The notes under the pieces were generated by a model that had not been told where the DNA came from, did not search any database, and saw nothing but the letters and a program-made list of their open reading frames with translations. The translations under genes and the position numbers were made by a program. Below, one piece after another: positions 1 through 7,836 of a DNA stretch of 64,000 bases; position 1 is the stretch's first letter; each line of letters begins with the position of its first letter. Origin of the DNA: Acidimicrobiales bacterium (GTDB lineage Bacteria > Actinomycetota > Acidimicrobiia > Acidimicrobiales > MedAcidi-G1); assembly GCA_022452145.1 (NCBI GenBank), contig JAKURY010000010.1, forward strand, positions 1-64,000. Direction: 5' to 3'.

Positions 1-135
1 CTGGCCACGCTGGCCGCGGTCGCCCTGGGAGCCACGGTTCTGGTTCTGGCCACGCTGGCCGCGGTCGCCCTGGGAGCCACGGTTCTGGTCCTGGCCACGC
101 TGGCCGCGGTCGCCCTGGGAGCCGCGGGTCTGGTT
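1..135 (-). repeat. 45-bp tandem repeat (3 units) inside rho
   Basis: Units at 1-45, 46-90 and 91-135 are nearly identical. The first two differ only at the last base, and the third has a few substitutions. Each encodes 15 residues, read on the minus strand as N-Q-N/T-R-G-S-Q-G-D-R-G-Q-R-G-Q. The period is a whole number of codons, so copy number can change without breaking rho. The array continues past base 1, so the total number of units is unknown. Confidence 0.95.
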
Positions 136-510
136 CTGCCGCCCCAGACCGCGTCCCTGGCCATCTCCCGGGTCGGAAGCCTCGTCCACGCTCGCTTCGG
201 CAGTCACCGCGACGTCGGTCGGTCCGGTGTCGGTCTGCGCCTCGTCGGCATCGGTGGCAGCCGCAGCGGCGGCCTCCCACTCCGCGGGTGGCTCCCCATA
301 GCCCGCCTCGACCTCGGGGACGTCGACGGTCGCCTCCGATCCGTCGGACGAACCGTTCGACCCGGCGTCGGTCAGGTCCAGGATCATGTCGACGATCTCG
401 GCCTTGCGGGCCCGCGAGCCAGGCTTGCCACCCAGCGCGTTGGCGATGGTCGTCAGTTCGTCGCGGTCCTTGCTCTCCAGCGTGCCGCGTTCTAGTTGGG
501 TGGAGTCCAT
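1..510 (-). CDS. rho: Transcription termination factor Rho, N-terminal part (runs off window)
   Basis: Only the first 170 codons lie in the window; the ATPase core is beyond base 1. The frame starts at ATG (508-510) with a GAGGTG ribosome site about 8 nt upstream. Residues about 10-47 (ESKDRDELTTIANALGG, then KAEIVDMIL) form the SAP-like Rho N domain. An acidic, Ala-rich linker follows, then a run rich in Arg, Gly, Gln and Asn that consists of 15-residue repeats. Actinobacterial Rho proteins carry such an extra RNA-binding insert before the cold-shock domain. Rho is an RNA helicase that ends transcription of untranslated RNA. Its position at the end of an argS-lysA-hom-thrC block matches actinobacterial gene order. 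The identification rests on N-domain, repeats and context, since the Walker motifs are not visible. Confidence 0.85.
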   Translation of the reverse strand, partial: MDSTQLERGTLESKDRDELTTIANALGGKPGSRARKAEIVDMILDLTDAGSNGSSDGSEATVDVPEVEAGYGEPPAEWEAAAAAATDADEAQTDTGPTDVAVTAEASVDEASDPGDGQGRGLGRQNQTRGSQGDRGQRGQDQNRGSQGDRGQRGQNQNRGSQGDRGQRGQ

Positions 511-787: not shown

Positions 788-1939
788 TCAGTCGGCCAGC
801 AGCCGGGGAACCAGGCGATGGCCGGGAACAAGGGGTTCTGCGGCCACGCCGGCCTCTGAGAACGTCCCTCCGGGGCCGTCCACGGCCGAGTCCACCAGCA
901 CGTAGGGCACCGGGTCGGCGGTGTGGGTGCGGGTCGTGAGCGGCGTGGCGTGGTCCGGGAGCATGAGGAGGCGCCACGGGCCCATGGCGTCCAGTCCCGG
1001 GATCAACCCGGACAGGATGCGGCGGTCCCAGTTCTCCAGGGCAGCGACCTTCTCGGAGACGTTGCCGGCGTGGCCGGCCTCGTCCGTGGCCTCCACATGG
1101 ATGACGAACAGGTCCAGCCCGGCCTCGAGCTCTGCCAGGGCCACGTCCCTCTTGCCCTCGTAGTCGGTGTCGTACCAGCCGGTGGCGCCCCGGATGTCAC
1201 AGACCTTCATGCCCGACAGCACTCCTATGCCCCGTACCAGGTCCACTGCCGTCACCAGGCCGGCCTCCACGCCGTGGGTGTCGGTGAACGACGGCACCTG
1301 TGGCTGGAAGCCCTGGCCCCACAGCCAGATCTGGTTGGCCTCGATGTCGAAGCCCGCCAGGACGTCCTTCGAGGCCTCCATCAACCCGGTCAGTACCGTG
1401 CCTGCCGGCCCGGACGGGTTCACGATCGTGTCGCCGGAGAGGTCGTGGGGCGGCGTGCAGTCGGCCTCGATCCACGGCCCGGGCGCGATCATGGCGTTAC
1501 GGAAGCCCACCCCTGCCAGGAACTCGACGCCCTCCTGGGCTCCTGCCAGCTCCGCCTGCAGGGCGGCCACCACCGCGGCCCCCTCCTCGTCGGACGGGTT
1601 ACCACCCGCGTAGTCGACCATCACGCCGTCGCGGACGACCACCAGGTTGCAGCGGAAGGCCGTCTGCTCGGGCCGCAGCGAGCGGCCCATGGCGGCCACC
1701 TCGATGGGAGCTCGACCGGTGTGGAACTCGGCCGGGTCGAAGCCCAGGATCGACATGTTGCCCACGTCGCTGCCGGGAGCCATGCCCTCGGGTATGACCG
1801 CCGCGCGGCCCACCGTTCCCCTGGCGGCCAACGAGGCCAGGACCGGCATGTGGGCGACGTCCAGCGGTGTACGGCCGTCGAGGTCGGGAACAGGAAGGTC
1901 GGCACAGCCGTCGGGGATGCAGATCACGTACTTCTTCAC
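788..1939 (-). CDS. ApgM-like 2,3-bisphosphoglycerate-independent phosphoglycerate mutase family; probable homoserine kinase
   Basis: A 383-residue protein of the alkaline-phosphatase-fold ApgM family (COG3635). Visible motifs are the N-terminal KKYVICIPDGCAD, with its metal-binding Asp, and the phospho-acceptor region PGSDVGNMSILGFDP near residues 50-65. HTGRAPIEVAAMG, HVEATDEAGHAGN and PDHATP follow, the last two carrying metal-binding Asp/His. Family members are either phosphoglycerate mutases or a subgroup annotated as proposed homoserine kinases. Here the gene lies between thrC and rho, exactly where actinobacteria such as Mycobacterium carry thrB, and no GHMP-type thrB is visible. I therefore infer it makes O-phosphohomoserine for ThrC. 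I chose the GTG at 1939, just before the conserved KKY. An upstream start at 1987 would add a non-conserved tail. Confidence 0.75.
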   Translation of the reverse strand: MKKYVICIPDGCADLPVPDLDGRTPLDVAHMPVLASLAARGTVGRAAVIPEGMAPGSDVGNMSILGFDPAEFHTGRAPIEVAAMGRSLRPEQTAFRCNLVVVRDGVMVDYAGGNPSDEEGAAVVAALQAELAGAQEGVEFLAGVGFRNAMIAPGPWIEADCTPPHDLSGDTIVNPSGPAGTVLTGLMEASKDVLAGFDIEANQIWLWGQGFQPQVPSFTDTHGVEAGLVTAVDLVRGIGVLSGMKVCDIRGATGWYDTDYEGKRDVALAELEAGLDLFVIHVEATDEAGHAGNVSEKVAALENWDRRILSGLIPGLDAMGPWRLLMLPDHATPLTTRTHTADPVPYVLVDSAVDGPGGTFSEAGVAAEPLVPGHRLVPRLLAD

Positions 1940-2002: not shown

Positions 2003-3385
2003 TCATCCGGCACGCCGGTGTGCCTCGACGAACTCCTGCACCACGGCCAGGTCGTTCGGGAGCCGGGTCAGGCGCTCGGGGCGCTCATGGAGGTCGGCCA
2101 GACGTTCCGGGAGAGGCGGCCGGATACCGGTGGCGTCGGCGACGGCGTCGGGGAACTTGGCCGGATGGGCGGTGGCCAGGGCCACCATCGGTACCGACGG
2201 ATCCCGTCGACAGGCCCTGGCAGCCAGCACACCGACGGCGCTGTGGGGATCCAACAGGACGCCGGACCTGTCGGCCTCGGTCGCTATGCAGTCGCGGACG
2301 GTCCCGTCATCGAAGCGGGCACCGGCCCAGCCGTCGGCCAGGGCAGCGTGGAGCACGGGATCCAGGCGGAACGAGCCGCTGGCCCGGAAGCGGTCCAACT
2401 GCTCGGCGACAGCCGCGCCGTCACGGTCGAGTAGCTCGAACAGCAGACGTTCCAGGTTCGACGAGACCTGGATGTCCATGCTCGGCGACGAGGTGGGAAC
2501 CACCTCGTCGATGGTCATCGTGCCCTCGACGAAGAACTGGGTGAGGACGTCGTTGGTGTTGCTCCCCACCACCAGCTGCGGTACGGCCAGGCCCGAGCAC
2601 CGCGCCACGTGGCCGGCGAACACGTTGCCGAAGTTGCCCGTCGGAACCGAGAAGGCCACCGGCGACCGGCGTCCGCCCAGGCGCTCGGCAGCCACCACGT
2701 AGTAGACGACCTGCGCCATGACCCGGGCCCAGTTGATCGAGTTGACCGCCGAGAGGCCCACGCGATCCCGGAACACGACGTCGGCGAACATGGCCTTCAC
2801 CAGGTCCTGACAGTCGTCGAAGGTGCCGTCGACTGCCACGTTGTGCACGTTTGCCGAGGTAACGGTGGTCATCTGCCGCCTCTGGACGTCGGACACCCGA
2901 CCAGCCGGATGGAGGATGACCAGGTCCATGTTGTCCCGGTCCCTACAGGCCTCGATGGCAGCCGATCCGGTATCGCCCGACGTGGCGCCGACGATGGTCA
3001 CCCGCTCCCCCCGCCGGTCCAGCTCATGGTCGAACAGGCGACCGACCAGTTGCAGTGCCACGTCCTTGAAGGCCAGCGTCGGACCGTGGAAGAGCTCAAG
3101 CAGGTGGATGCCGTCGGACAACTCGACGATTGGAGTCACGTCCGGCGCATCGAACACCGCATAGGCGTCCTCCACCATCGCGGCGAAGGCGTCCGCTCCG
3201 ACGGAGTCGCCGACGTACGGCGACATCACCTCCACCGCCGTCTCGACATAGTCGCCCCGGCCACCGTCGCCAAGCACCGGCCAGGCCTCCGGCACGTAGA
3301 GGCCACCGTCGTCGGCCAGCCCTGCCAGCAGGGCGTCGCCGAAGTCCAGGACCGGGGCGGCTCCCCGGGTGCTGACGTAGCGCAT
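2003..3385 (-). CDS. thrC: Threonine synthase
   Basis: A 460-residue PLP enzyme converting O-phosphohomoserine to threonine. The N-terminal RYVSTRGAAP signature is the ThrC substrate-side motif. HGPTLAFKDVALQ carries the PLP-binding Lys at residue 107. GATSGDTGSAAI binds the cofactor phosphate. SVPTGNFGNVFAG and QVSSNLERLLFEL are typical of the longer E. coli/yeast-type ThrC. It starts at ATG 3383-3385, 16 nt after the hom stop codon. It is part of the argS-lysA-hom-thrC-apgM-like operon and would receive its substrate from the downstream putative homoserine kinase. Confidence 0.95.
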   Translation of the reverse strand: MRYVSTRGAAPVLDFGDALLAGLADDGGLYVPEAWPVLGDGGRGDYVETAVEVMSPYVGDSVGADAFAAMVEDAYAVFDAPDVTPIVELSDGIHLLELFHGPTLAFKDVALQLVGRLFDHELDRRGERVTIVGATSGDTGSAAIEACRDRDNMDLVILHPAGRVSDVQRRQMTTVTSANVHNVAVDGTFDDCQDLVKAMFADVVFRDRVGLSAVNSINWARVMAQVVYYVVAAERLGGRRSPVAFSVPTGNFGNVFAGHVARCSGLAVPQLVVGSNTNDVLTQFFVEGTMTIDEVVPTSSPSMDIQVSSNLERLLFELLDRDGAAVAEQLDRFRASGSFRLDPVLHAALADGWAGARFDDGTVRDCIATEADRSGVLLDPHSAVGVLAARACRRDPSVPMVALATAHPAKFPDAVADATGIRPPLPERLADLHERPERLTRLPNDLAVVQEFVEAHRRAG

Positions 3386-3401
3386 CACGGTTCCGGTCGG
3401 T

Positions 3402-4700
3402 TCAGTCGCCGATGACGCGCAGGACACTCCCGACAGCCCGCACGGCATCCAGCGACCTGAGTCCCTGCAACGTGGAGCGCAGGTCCCGTTCCCTTGCCGC
3501 GTGGGTGATGAACACCAGGCGGGCCTCTCCTCCCAGGCCCTCCTGTTCCATGGAGCGGATCGAAACGCCGTTCTCCCCGAACACCGTGGCGACCTGGGCC
3601 AGGACGCCGGGACGGTCGTCGACCTCGACGTTCAGGTAGAACGCCGACGTGACGTCGTCGATCGGGGCTATCCGGGCCCGCTCCAGGGCACCGATCGGCG
3701 CCCCGTGGCCCCGCCGCAGGTTGCCGGCGGCGTCGATCAGGTCGCCCAGCACCGCCGATGCGGTGGGTCGACCGCCGGCCCCCCGGCCGTAGAACATGAG
3801 GTCACCGGACGCTCCACCCTCGACGAACACCGCGTTGAAGCTTCCCCTGACCGACGCCAGCGGGTGGTCGAGCGGCACAAGGGTCGGGTGCACGCGGACG
3901 CCGATCTGGAGCCCGCCGTCGGAGGCCCGGGTCTGCTCGACCACGGCCAGCAACTTTATGCAGTGCTGCAGGTCCGCGGCGAACTCGATGTCGGCGACGG
4001 TGATCCCGGAGATGCCCTCGTGGTACACGTCGCCGGCCACCACCCGTGCGCCGAAGGCCACCGTGGCGATGATGGCCGCCTTGGCCCCGGCGTCGAAGCC
4101 CTCCACGTCGGCCGTCGGGTCCCGCTCGGCGTAGCCCAGGCCCTGGGCCTCGGCCAGGGCGTCGGCGTAGCTGACACCGTCGTCGGCCATACGGCTCAGG
4201 ATGAAGTTGGTGGTGCCGTTCACGATGCCCATCACCCGGGTGATCGGCTCCCCGGCCAACGACTCCCGCAACGGGCGCATGATCGGGATGGCACCGGCGA
4301 CGGCCGCCTCGAACAGCAGGTCCACGCCGGCAGCCTCGGCCGCCTCGTAGAGCTCGGCGCCGTGGTTGGCCAGCAGTTCCTTGTTGGCTGTGACCACCGG
4401 CTTGCCGGCCGAAAGGGCGGCCAACACCAGCTCACGGGCCGGCTCGATGCCTCCCATGACCTCGACCACCACGTCGACATCCGCATCAGCGACGACGGCC
4501 GCCGCATCCGTGGTGAAGGCCGAGGCATCGACACCCACACCGCGGTCGATTGCCGTGTTGCGGACCGCTATGCGGGTCACGTCCAGGTACAGCCCGGTGC
4601 GACGGGCCACCTCGTCACGGCGTTCGGCGATGAGCGACACCAGGGCGGCACCGACGTGGCCGCAACCCAGCAGCCCGACACGGATCTGGGAGGGCTCCAT
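3402..4700 (-). CDS. hom: Homoserine dehydrogenase with ACT domain
   Basis: A 432-residue enzyme reducing aspartate semialdehyde to homoserine. The N-terminal Rossmann nucleotide-binding loop is VGLLGCGHVGAALV. VVTANKELLANHG and the catalytic-domain run GIVNGTTNFILSRM, then YAERDPTADVEGFDAG, are diagnostic. Residues about 350-432 (YLNVEVDDRPGVLAQVATVF) form an ACT domain, the usual site for threonine feedback inhibition. This matches the monofunctional actinobacterial ThrA/Hom, not the aspartokinase fusion of enterobacteria. It starts at ATG 4700, about 70 nt after lysA. Confidence 0.96.
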   Translation of the reverse strand: MEPSQIRVGLLGCGHVGAALVSLIAERRDEVARRTGLYLDVTRIAVRNTAIDRGVGVDASAFTTDAAAVVADADVDVVVEVMGGIEPARELVLAALSAGKPVVTANKELLANHGAELYEAAEAAGVDLLFEAAVAGAIPIMRPLRESLAGEPITRVMGIVNGTTNFILSRMADDGVSYADALAEAQGLGYAERDPTADVEGFDAGAKAAIIATVAFGARVVAGDVYHEGISGITVADIEFAADLQHCIKLLAVVEQTRASDGGLQIGVRVHPTLVPLDHPLASVRGSFNAVFVEGGASGDLMFYGRGAGGRPTASAVLGDLIDAAGNLRRGHGAPIGALERARIAPIDDVTSAFYLNVEVDDRPGVLAQVATVFGENGVSIRSMEQEGLGGEARLVFITHAARERDLRSTLQGLRSLDAVRAVGSVLRVIGD

Positions 4701-4769: not shown

Positions 4770-6041
4770 TCACGCCTCGCGACGCACGAGGTCCTCGTAG
4801 GTCTCCCGGCGGATCACCAGCCTGGCGTCGCCGTCGGCCACGAACACCACGGCCGGACGCAGGACGTGGTTGTAGTTGGAGCCCATGGCGTACCCGTATG
4901 CACCGGTTACCGGCGTGGCCAGCACGTCGCCCACCACCAGGTCGCCGGGAACCCAGCCCTCCCGGACAAGGAGGTCACCCGACTCGCAGTGCTTGCCCAC
5001 CACCCTCACGGACCGGTTGCGCTCGGCATCGGCCGCCCTGGGCAGGAACGTCTCGTATCCGGACCCGTAGAGGACCGGTCTCGGATTGTCGCTCATGCCA
5101 CCGTCGACGGCCACGTAGGTGCGGATGTCCGGCAGGTCCTTGACCGTTCCCACCCTGTACAGGGTGACCGCCGCCGCGGCCACGATGGCCCGTCCCGGCT
5201 CGGCCGAGACCGAGGCCGTGACCCCGGCCGCCTCACAGACGGCGCGGATCCCGGCCGCCCAGTCACCAATGGACGGTGCCGACTCGCCCTCCACGTAGGG
5301 AACCCCGAGGCCTCCCCCGACCGAGAGCTCGGCCAGCCCGTACGGCGCGGCGAACGTGGCCAGCACCTCGACGGCCCTGGCGAACGCCCCGACCTCGAAC
5401 ACCTGGCTGCCGATGTGGGCGTGGAGCCCGACGAGGTCGACCGAGTCCGAGGCGACGGCCCTCTCGACCGCCGCCGCGGCCAGACCCGATGACACGGTAA
5501 AGCCGAACTTGGAGTCGTCCTGGCCCGTGGCTACGAACTCGTGGGTGTGGGCCTCCACCCCGGGGGTGATCCGGAGCAGCACCATCGGCTTGGCGCCGGT
5601 GGCCGCCGCGATGGCGTCCAGGCGGTCCAGTTCGTCGAACGAGTCGACCACGATCCGGCCCACGCCCTCGGCGAGCGCCATGGCCAGTTCGCTGTCGCTC
5701 TTGTTGTTGCCGTGCATGACCAGCCGGTCACCCGGCACCCCGGCGTGGCGAGCCACGTACAGCTCGCCTCCCGTGGCGACGTCGAGGTGCATGCCCTCCT
5801 CATGGGCCAGGCGTGCCATGGCCCCACAGAGGAATGCCTTCGAGGCGTAGGCCACGCCGTCACCGAAGGCGGTCACCGCCTCCCGGCAGCGGGCCCGCAG
5901 TTGTGCCTCGTCGTAGACGAACAGCGGCGTGCCGTACTCGTCGGCCAGGTCAAGGAGGTCACAGCCGCCGATCGAGAGCCGACCGCCGGCACCGATGGAC
6001 GCCGTGTCGGGCAGCAGGTGGGTGGGTATGGGACCGGCCAC
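4770..6041 (-). CDS. lysA: Diaminopimelate decarboxylase
   Basis: A 423-residue fold-type III PLP enzyme performing the last step of lysine synthesis, meso-diaminopimelate to L-lysine. YASKAFLC carries the PLP Lys at residue 68. HGNNKSDSEL, GLHAHIGSQ and SVGGGLGVPY form the TIM-barrel phosphate sites. KHCESGDLL supplies the active-site Cys from the second subunit, and GAYGYAMGSNYN is the C-terminal signature. The start is GTG 6041, only 2 nt after the argS stop, so the two are probably translationally linked. Confidence 0.96.
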   Translation of the reverse strand: MAGPIPTHLLPDTASIGAGGRLSIGGCDLLDLADEYGTPLFVYDEAQLRARCREAVTAFGDGVAYASKAFLCGAMARLAHEEGMHLDVATGGELYVARHAGVPGDRLVMHGNNKSDSELAMALAEGVGRIVVDSFDELDRLDAIAAATGAKPMVLLRITPGVEAHTHEFVATGQDDSKFGFTVSSGLAAAAVERAVASDSVDLVGLHAHIGSQVFEVGAFARAVEVLATFAAPYGLAELSVGGGLGVPYVEGESAPSIGDWAAGIRAVCEAAGVTASVSAEPGRAIVAAAAVTLYRVGTVKDLPDIRTYVAVDGGMSDNPRPVLYGSGYETFLPRAADAERNRSVRVVGKHCESGDLLVREGWVPGDLVVGDVLATPVTGAYGYAMGSNYNHVLRPAVVFVADGDARLVIRRETYEDLVRREA

Positions 6042-6043
6042 GG

Positions 6044-7690
6044 TCAGGCCTCCCCGTCGGCCCGGTCGTCGACCCCGTCACGCCACATCTCGGTGGGGGC
6101 GCCCACGCCGAGCAGGTCCATGGCCACGGCCAGCCCGATCCGGACGCCCTCGAGCAGCCAGAGACGGGCCTGGGTCGTGGACGGGTGCATGCCGTCTCCG
6201 AACACCCGACAGTCGTGGTAGAAGCCGTGGAAGGCCGACGCCAGGTCCCGGACCCAGGCGGTGACCTGATGGGGTGCCCGTTCCCGACATGCCCGTGCCA
6301 CCACCTCGGGCAACTCGTGGAGGTACCGCAGGATCTCTAGCTCCCGGGGATGGACGAGCACCGACAGGTCTGTGTCGGCCAACGGCTCGCGCCCGATGCC
6401 CTCGGCGGCGGCCCTGAGGACCACCGAGTGGATCCGGGCATGGGCGTACTGCACGTAGAAGACCGGGTTCTCGTTGACCTGGCTGGCCACCAGGTCCATG
6501 TCGAAGGTCTGGGGTGAGTCGATCGAGAGCAGCAGGTAGGTGAAGCGGGCTGCGTCGGCACCAACCTCGTCGACCACCTCAGCCAACTCCACCATCTCAC
6601 CCGTCCGCTTGGAGAGCCGGACCTCCCGGCCGTCCCTCTGCAGGTTGACCAGTTGGGTTATGACGATCTCGAGGTCACTCCTGTCGTGGCCGAGCAGCGC
6701 CATGGCGGCGTGCATGCGGGCCACGTAGCCGTGGTGGTCTGCGCCGAACACGTTCACCAGCCGGTCGGCCCGCCCGAACTTGTCCCGGTGGTAGGCCACG
6801 TCGGGCATCAGGTAGGTGGGCTGGCCGTCCCCCTTGACCAGGACGCGGTCCTTGTCGTCGCCATGGTCGGAGCTCCGCAGCCAGACCGCGCCGTCCTCCT
6901 CGTAGACGGCACCGGCGGCCCGCAGGTCGACCAACGTGGCGTCGACGGCCCCCGAGGCGATCATCGACCGCTCCGAGAACCAGGAGTCGAAGTGGATGGA
7001 GAGGGACTCCAGGACCGACCGGTGGGCCGCCAGGGCTCGGGCGTAGCCCCACTCCAACGGATCGGCGTCGCCGGGCATCTCGGCCGCCCAGTCCACGATG
7101 TACCGGCCGTGGTAGCCGTCCTCTCCCACCTCGGTGCCGGCGGCACGGGCTGCCAGCGACGCGGCGAAGTTCTGCATCTGGACGCCACGGTCGTTGACGT
7201 AGAACTCGCGCACCACTTCGTAGCCGCACCGCTCGTAGAGGCGCGCCACCGAGTCGCCGTAGCAGGCGCCCCTGCCGTGGCCGGCGTGCAGGGGACCGGT
7301 CGGGTTGGCGCTCACGAACTCGACGATGACGCTCGTCCCGACGCCGGAGTCGAGACGGCCCCAGCCATCGGTGCCGGCATCCACCACGTCGACCAGCACC
7401 TCGTGCAGCCAGGAGTCGGCCAGGCGGAAGTTGACGAAGCCGGGTCCGGCCACGTCCACGCCGATCACGTGGGGGGGCGGTGCGGTGGACAGGTGGTCGG
7501 ACAGCGCCGTGCCCAGCTCCCGCGGGTTGCGACCCGCCGCCTTCGCGGAGGCCAGGGCCACGTTGGTGGACCAGTCGCCGTGTTCCGGGTTGGCCGGACG
7601 CTCCAACTGGACGACGTCGGGCACCGGCTCGACGCCAAGGTCGGCCAGAGCGGAGCGAACCGCGTCGATGAGGGTGTCGCGCACGTCCAT
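6044..7690 (-). CDS. argS: Arginyl-tRNA synthetase
   Basis: A 548-residue class I aminoacyl-tRNA synthetase. The N-terminal tRNA-recognition (Add-1) domain contains NPEHGDWSTNVAL. The HIGH box is HAGH within SANPTGPLHAGHGRG, and the KMSKS counterpart is LSKRTGE. The DALR anticodon-binding domain ends the protein (QYAHARIHSVVLRAA to FYHDCRVFGDG). I chose ATG 7690 (MDVRDTLIDAV), because residues from an earlier in-frame start would be a low-complexity Pro/Arg run. It is the first gene of the operon that ends in rho, the same order as in mycobacteria. Confidence 0.96.
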   Translation of the reverse strand: MDVRDTLIDAVRSALADLGVEPVPDVVQLERPANPEHGDWSTNVALASAKAAGRNPRELGTALSDHLSTAPPPHVIGVDVAGPGFVNFRLADSWLHEVLVDVVDAGTDGWGRLDSGVGTSVIVEFVSANPTGPLHAGHGRGACYGDSVARLYERCGYEVVREFYVNDRGVQMQNFAASLAARAAGTEVGEDGYHGRYIVDWAAEMPGDADPLEWGYARALAAHRSVLESLSIHFDSWFSERSMIASGAVDATLVDLRAAGAVYEEDGAVWLRSSDHGDDKDRVLVKGDGQPTYLMPDVAYHRDKFGRADRLVNVFGADHHGYVARMHAAMALLGHDRSDLEIVITQLVNLQRDGREVRLSKRTGEMVELAEVVDEVGADAARFTYLLLSIDSPQTFDMDLVASQVNENPVFYVQYAHARIHSVVLRAAAEGIGREPLADTDLSVLVHPRELEILRYLHELPEVVARACRERAPHQVTAWVRDLASAFHGFYHDCRVFGDGMHPSTTQARLWLLEGVRIGLAVAMDLLGVGAPTEMWRDGVDDRADGEA

Positions 7691-7836
7691 AGCCGGATCC
7701 GGGGAGGGGGGGTGGAAGCGACCGGGGTCCGGCCGCCGGCCCGATGCTACCGGCGGCACCCGGGCCCGACCGGCTGCGAATAACGCAGCACATGGTCGGC
7801 GGAGTCACGGGCCGGTGGACAGGCGGATCGGCGACC

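Follow-up and report, generated by a model that had tools for sequence, protein, structure and literature searches.

The question raised by this locus is how homoserine is phosphorylated in an acidimicrobial bacterium in whose threonine operon the place after thrC, held in other actinobacterial classes by the GHMP homoserine kinase gene thrB, is occupied by a gene (here called X) for a relative of the archaeal-type cofactor-independent phosphoglycerate mutases (ApgM). The window, by which the whole analysed stretch of 64,000 nucleotides from contig JAKURY010000010.1 (assembly GCA_022452145.1) is meant, carries the following genes at its beginning:

1..510, minus strand: rho, truncated where the contig ends (window position 1), so that just the N-terminal part is present; this part is conserved in relatives
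788..1939, minus strand: X, ApgM-type alkaline-phosphatase-fold protein of 383 aa with a GTG start; proposed homoserine phosphotransferase
2003..3448, minus strand: thrC, threonine synthase (TIGR00260, 245 bits against a cut-off of 167; Thr_synth_N, PF14821)
3402..4700, minus strand: hom, homoserine dehydrogenase with an ACT domain (NF004976, 530.6 bits against 205; PF00742, PF01842)
4770..6041, minus strand: lysA, diaminopimelate decarboxylase (TIGR01048, 438 bits against 298)
6044..7759, minus strand: argS, arginyl-tRNA synthetase (TIGR00456, 379.9 bits against 261.65)

The gene order argS-lysA-hom-thrC-X-rho, as first read from the sequence alone, proved correct. thrC, hom, lysA and argS lie upstream of X on the same strand and all four exceed their NCBIfam cut-offs, and the rho fragment, for which the Pfam Rho_N match is sub-threshold, has its first 46-47 residues matched at 83-96% in seven of the eight relatives searched, the frame running over 546-580 aa in the three relatives that were traced further. 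By eye, the contig end falls inside tandem repeats of about 45 bp units (window positions 1-130) which give the N-terminus of Rho a tract resembling RGQNQNRGSQGD, and these repeats are perhaps the cause of the assembly break. Judged from its translation, thrC may have its true start at an internal ATG at 3385. A promoter and terminator scan found nothing.

The frame of X is intact, running without interruption on the minus strand from the GTG at 1939 to 788; a longer ATG frame reaching to 1987 is disfavoured, and the GTG preferred, because relatives start with MKY. Pfam finds PF10143 (E 1.8e-39), PF01676 (E 7.4e-34) and no other domains in the protein, and the apgM model TIGR00306 gives 373 bits, above its curated cut-off of 320. 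The predicted structure (mean pLDDT 95.7, from a 17-sequence alignment) has its best structural match in the archaeal ApgM 2zkt (VIA-align Z 43.7 over 354 residues at 2.6 A; Foldseek E 7.1e-34), in line with the earlier assignment of the gene to the ApgM family and the alkaline phosphatase fold. Two further NCBIfam models are missed by the window protein, namely NF003242, 'cofactor-independent phosphoglycerate mutase' (393.7 bits, below 426), and TIGR02535, 'proposed homoserine kinase' (387.4 bits, below the curated 446.3).

In the genome to which the window belongs (2,075,283 bases in 46 contigs, 95.07% complete), the thrB model TIGR00191 gives no match and no candidate, and it is likewise without matches in the five other sampled genomes of that family. 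The sole GHMP_N match scores only with ispE models (best 115.9 bits against a cut-off of 204) and adjoins a ksgA-like frame, the sole shikimate kinase lies within a cluster reading aroE...aroK-aroB (aroE and aroB named by eye), and a homoserine kinase model was matched by none of the four proteins scanned with NCBIfam among seven APH-domain matches (of the others, L014 was scanned with Pfam only and L013 and L017 were left out). A known homoserine kinase elsewhere in this genome, of the GHMP, shikimate kinase or APH type, was accordingly rejected as a candidate among the proteins scanned. As to phosphoglycerate mutases, the 2,3-BPG-dependent gpmA is present (373.4 bits against an equivalog cut-off of 366), the bacterial iPGM_N domain has no match, and X is the single PF01676 match. 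The sequence-only reading had regarded a genuine thrB elsewhere, combined with the lack of any other phosphoglycerate mutase, as favouring a glycolytic role; the genome turned out the other way on both counts, with no thrB match and with gpmA present.

Profile searches of 295 genomes of the class (Acidimicrobiia) place the TIGR02535 matches in two score groups, a high one of 381-498 bits, to which two partial matches of 238 and 294 bits also belong, and a low one of 137-179 bits, a few scraps of about 20 bits aside. The high-scoring group, X, is found in 70 genomes from 25 families (two of them, G152 and G060, counted from partial matches), and the low-scoring group, a second ApgM paralogue, in 11; the TIGR02535 cut-off is passed in only three of the 295 genomes, and 67 of the 70 X genomes stay below it. 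With strong-match limits of 1e-20 for thrB, 1e-50 for gpmA and 1e-65 for X, chosen after the tables had been seen, 61 X genomes have gpmA without the second ApgM, nine have the second ApgM without gpmA, and none has both or neither. The nine without gpmA are spread over seven families, and one family (f37) holds both states. The second ApgM occurs without X in two genomes, one (G032) without a strong gpmA match and one (G291) with gpmA and a divergent protein. That protein (L122), 31% identical to another paralogue, shares the G291 genome with gpmA and thrB. The phosphoglycerate mutase model NF003160 is passed by each of the four paralogues that were scanned, out of 11, and at none of the 11 paralogue loci are hom, lysA, argS or rho found, a ThrC-like gene of 38% identity being present at one. 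The fact that all 70 X genomes have another phosphoglycerate mutase, with gpmA and the paralogue strictly alternating, argues against X as the glycolytic mutase. Read most simply, the glycolytic job is divided between gpmA and the second ApgM, and X does something else.

When X is compared with GHMP thrB (match below 1e-20) across the 295 genomes, both are present in 12, X only in 58, thrB only in 180 and neither in 45, and the 75 genomes in which the TIGR00191 cut-off is passed include no X genome. The Fisher p of 1.6e-21 for X against thrB assumes independent genomes, which they are not; since the class X rows form one clade, the gpmA/ApgM switch pattern is relied on instead. The 12 overlap genomes comprise ten with a divergent GHMP relative of ThrB, one with a split gene and one with a GHMP-TIR fusion. 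The divergent type (L159-L168, L101, L105), with GLGFS or GMGYS where ThrB has GLGSS, occurs across several families of the class, both alongside X and in its absence; in G071 (L105) and G015 (L101), which are without X, it may be a working kinase, and some X genomes may therefore hold two enzymes. In the X genome G162 the GHMP gene (L169) lies in two separate frames, perhaps as a pseudogene, perhaps through an error of assembly. In G226 a 796-aa protein (L108, 6591-8981, minus strand) consists of a ThrB-like GHMP kinase and, by eye, a C-terminal TIR-like stretch, and could be a defence or signalling protein. The 45 of 225 non-X genomes with neither gene imply that further routes, or auxotrophs, exist in the class.

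The surroundings of X were examined in 50 of the 70 X genomes (window excluded). Upstream of X and on its strand, 42 of them have thrC, 40 have hom, 32 have lysA and 20 have argS; downstream of X, 44 have rho. No thrC was seen upstream at eight of the 50 loci, about 6 kb of upstream sequence being available in four of these (L055, L076, L086, L087) and 0-3.8 kb in four. The thrC genes beside X are of two unlike types, which suggests that thrC has been exchanged and X retained. GHMP thrB loci in other classes have thrC upstream in 18 of 20 cases and rho downstream within the stretch in 14 of 20, and thrC adjoins thrB in 28 of the 30 best thrB matches of the phylum sample. Around the GHMP thrB genes of the class itself, hom, thrC and rho were found at none of the 25 loci fetched, over a span of about 8 kb wherever the contig reached that far (these 25 include the TIR fusion, L108, of an X genome). 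The hom region of 20 class genomes with GHMP thrB and without X (L269-L288) has thrC in 19, rho in 19, and X or thrB in none. As thrB, X or neither can thus be found at the slot, it has three states: thrB, X and empty. The earlier description of X as a clean replacement at the same position is borne out in so far as thrB does hold the place after thrC in other classes; it does not extend to the class itself, where genomes with thrB carry neither gene at hom and keep thrB away from hom, thrC and rho. The replacement history is more complex than a single swap. A search for fusions of X that would reveal its function gave none that was convincing.

In a motif-led retrieval, the best 80 of 574 loci come from Acidimicrobiia, Omnitrophota, Planctomycetota, Myxococcota, Binatota, Bacteroidota and others, and hom or thrC is present in the stretch at at least 49 of these 80 named loci, including loci of Omnitrophota, Planctomycetota, Myxococcota and Binatota, the count being a lower bound as the hom and thrC probes are actinobacterial. 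A quick tree calculated for 130 proteins splits every X-type row from ApgM (SH-aLRT 100), and all class X rows fall within a 79-row clade (SH-aLRT 97) whose remaining 24 rows are named loci, mostly labelled Actinomycetota; among these 24 are one Streptomyces protein (L221, with a long branch) and a MAG that carries the label Acidobacteria. The proteins which pass TIGR02535 (L018 in G012, L019 in G040 and L020 in G006) fall in this clade with X, and the window protein groups with loci titled Candidatus Microthrix and MedAcidi-G2B. In Streptomyces sp. NRRL WC-3626 the X homologue (L221, 6006-8158) stands beside a cysteine-synthase-like PLP enzyme, with an LDH2-like dehydrogenase nearby (both by eye) and neither hom nor thrC in the stretch; the locus is possibly a natural-product cluster with phosphohomoserine-like chemistry.

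As the 70 named X sequences were fetched by motifs which include W205, W207 and E283, conservation was counted in 55 class X sequences found by HMM and compared with 13 ApgM sequences (11 from the class, two from the PDB). Identical sequences were entered once; L027, L076 and L083, whose X frames are odd or incomplete, and the N-terminally cut L211 and L212 were dropped from both the counts and the tree, L122 is absent from the tree and retained among the 13, and in one ApgM reference, 2zkt, about 60 missing residues were supplied from X. Invariant in all 55 X sequences are D10, S57, R76, R96, N98, R147, D286, H290, K297, D305, D329, H330 and H339, which we take, by homology to cofactor-independent phosphoglycerate mutases, to include the catalytic Ser and the ligands of two metals. 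The basic residues R110, R111, R114, H146, R207 and K283 are each present in 12 or 13 of the 13 ApgM sequences, and none of them is found in any X. The changes from ApgM to X are R110 to F/Y, R111 to A/S/T, R114 to H/N/S, H146 to Y/F, D163 to P, L205 to W, R207 to W, K283 to E, V323 to R/K and G328 to P; R111, K283 and G328 are present in 13/13 ApgM and A/S/T, E and P in 55/55 X, and R207 in 12/13 against W in 55/55. Acids are also gained at position 233 (P or A to D) and position 166 (to D or E), and position 287 is E in 54 of 55 X and in one of 13 ApgM. E283 stands three residues before D286 and E287 one after it. Metal-ligand position 290 is Glu in 10 of 13 ApgM as against His in X, and the metal site is therefore not identical throughout. 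The loss of basic residues, combined with the acids acquired close to the metal ligands in the sequence, would fit an amino-acid substrate rather than phosphoglycerate.

A homoserine role for related proteins has been proposed before, on co-occurrence among other grounds, as the sequence-only reading had stated (PMC7311316, PMC9026213). The TIGRFam curators proposed that TIGR02535 proteins transfer phosphate to homoserine from a donor such as PEP; mutants of BT2402 of Bacteroides thetaiotaomicron require threonine, and an E. coli thrB mutant was not complemented by BT2402. In GapMind, homoserine kinase is among the two commonest low-confidence steps, in 29 of 148 organisms able to grow with no amino acids supplied, and TIGR02535 is present in 15 of those 29 (all PMC7311316). 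The group has been named ThrB2 on co-occurrence and co-localisation (PMC9026213), and BT2402 has been called 'the alternative homoserine kinase', with its zinc sites conserved and the calcium site lost (PMC9765024). Archaeal-type iPGM in bacteria has also been counted as phosphoglycerate mutase, homoserine being unmentioned in the portion of that report at hand (PMC2964296), and a complementation of E. coli thrB with a B. thetaiotaomicron library, among others, names no hit for the X family in the accessible text (PMC11535334). No report of purified or demonstrated homoserine-phosphorylating activity for the X family was found in the literature searched, as far as its available parts extend.

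The best explanation, to which we give a probability of roughly 0.8, is that X substitutes for the GHMP kinase ThrB and makes O-phospho-L-homoserine. It is supported by the lack of a match to any searched homoserine kinase type, the presence of another phosphoglycerate mutase, the operon place, the clade-wide residue changes and the threonine need of BT2402 mutants (PMC7311316). Weighing against it are the failure of BT2402 on the E. coli thrB mutant (PMC7311316), the score of X under the TIGR02535 cut-off (387 against 446), a GHMP relative of ThrB also in 12 of the 70 X genomes, the lack of both X and thrB in 45 of 225 non-X genomes, the eight of 50 X loci without a visible thrC, the approximately 5% of the genome that is possibly missing, and the Glu at position 290 in 10 of 13 ApgM, which makes the shared core not identical. 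X would act between homoserine dehydrogenase and threonine synthase, converting homoserine to O-phospho-L-homoserine. A two-metal alkaline-phosphatase site (D10, D286, H290, D329, H330, H339) would activate Ser57, which would accept a phosphoryl group, with ATP or a phosphoester as the donor, and pass it to the homoserine hydroxyl. Phosphate or carboxylate is probably bound by R76, R96, N98 and R147, which the mutase ancestor already had, and the homoserine amino group may be bound by E283 with the other acids gained in the clade; the substrate, the phosphoenzyme and the residue roles are those that we infer. What stands of the earlier label 'probable homoserine kinase' is the substitute role, with ATP or a phosphoester as the possible donor. 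That a phosphomonoester (3PG, 2PG, PEP or phosphoserine) is used and not ATP has, in our estimate, somewhat below an even chance. Relatives of X shift phosphoryl groups between phosphoesters via phosphoserine, the structure matches include the substrate-bound relatives 1ejj and 1o98, and R76, R96, N98 and R147 are kept in X. The PEP-like donor of the curators' proposal (PMC7311316) points the same way, as does Pseudomonas ThrH, which PMC2700814 and PMC10714395 cite as a phosphoserine:homoserine phosphotransferase; but with R110, R111, R114 and R207 of ApgM lost, X may have ceased to bind phosphoglycerates.

Three other roles may be considered for X. It could be a glycolytic cofactor-independent phosphoglycerate mutase that stands in the threonine operon by chance, as its fold and family and the name carried by NF003242 and TIGR00306 would have it, the NF003242 cut-off being exceeded by three of the four X relatives scanned (L054, L068, L070). 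This role was rejected on the gpmA/ApgM complementarity and is very improbable, as every X genome has another phosphoglycerate mutase, all four scanned paralogues exceed NF003160, the Arg/Lys/His set kept by ApgM is lost in X, and the paralogue loci, apart from one ThrC-like gene, are devoid of the operon genes that surround X. Just as improbable is an L-threonine kinase or a similar amino-acid phosphotransferase of another pathway, for which the Streptomyces homologue beside a cysteine-synthase-like gene, and a corrinoid-operon TIGR02535 protein, Dehre_1608, with a suggested threonine kinase role in cobamide synthesis (PMC4285132), are the grounds; within the class, 42 of 50 X loci show linkage to hom or thrC, and the searched homoserine kinase types are unmatched in the window's genome. 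Hardly more probable is that X merely aids threonine synthesis, for example as a repair or regulatory phosphatase, and that the step itself is carried out by an unrecognised enzyme such as the HAD protein ThrH. Ilumatobacter coccineum is an acidimicrobial species. ThrH has been reported in it (PMC3910706), and an accessory role would accommodate BT2402, which is needed for threonine yet does not replace thrB in E. coli (PMC7311316); against this, none of the 70 X genomes has thrB over the cut-off, and X stands where other classes have thrB, which is the pattern of a substitute.

Returning to X as the maker of O-phospho-L-homoserine, a role already proposed for related proteins (TIGR02535, ThrB2, BT2402), the class adds strong circumstantial evidence. 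The acidimicrobial X genes form an independent test set, with their operon place, a glycolytic step covered by another enzyme and a residue signature apart from that of the mutases. They also expose a naming conflict, one clade being called homoserine kinase by TIGR02535 and phosphoglycerate mutase by NF003242. Most of the class falls under the TIGR02535 cut-off, and automatic annotation would tend to name X a glycolytic enzyme; the X relatives L054 and L068, for instance, pass NF003242 and TIGR00306 and not TIGR02535, and would therefore be named mutases. Should the donor be a phosphoester, threonine synthesis would be tied directly to lower glycolysis. More tentatively still, about a quarter of the sampled class genomes (70 of 295) and several other phyla might draw the phosphate for threonine from a glycolytic or serine-pathway ester by means of a phosphotransferase derived from phosphoglycerate mutase, with no ATP-dependent homoserine kinase needed.

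Compared to known systems, X is closest to the TIGR02535/ThrB2 group (type BT2402, B. thetaiotaomicron), falling in the same ApgM branch by score and tree with the class members that pass the model, through which the likeness is drawn, BT2402 itself being outside the alignment. Linkage to thrC and hom and presence where thrB is missing are shared with this group, as it has been described (PMC7311316, PMC9026213), whereas the window protein lies below the cut-off and sits in an actinobacterial argS...rho cluster. With the archaeal-type cofactor-independent mutases (TIGR00306; 2zkt, 3kd8) X shares the whole fold, the catalytic Ser and most metal ligands, but it is only 25-34% identical to them, has other residues at the places of four Arg, one Lys and one His, has gained acids, and stands in another gene context. 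The GHMP kinase ThrB (TIGR00191) is alike in the proposed reaction and in the place after thrC which thrB holds in other actinobacterial classes, and unlike in that X is without a GHMP domain in Pfam; we take the two folds to be unrelated. ThrH, as cited in PMC2700814 and PMC10714395, offers a precedent for a phosphoester as the source of the phosphate on homoserine, although no HAD domain is found among the Pfam matches of X. Finally, PhpG, the CMP-5'-phosphonoformate--3-phosphoglycerate phosphonoformyl transferase (NF038358), is an ApgM relative that its model description names as a two-molecule transferase, as X is proposed to be, although X reaches 155.6 bits with this model against a cut-off of 545.
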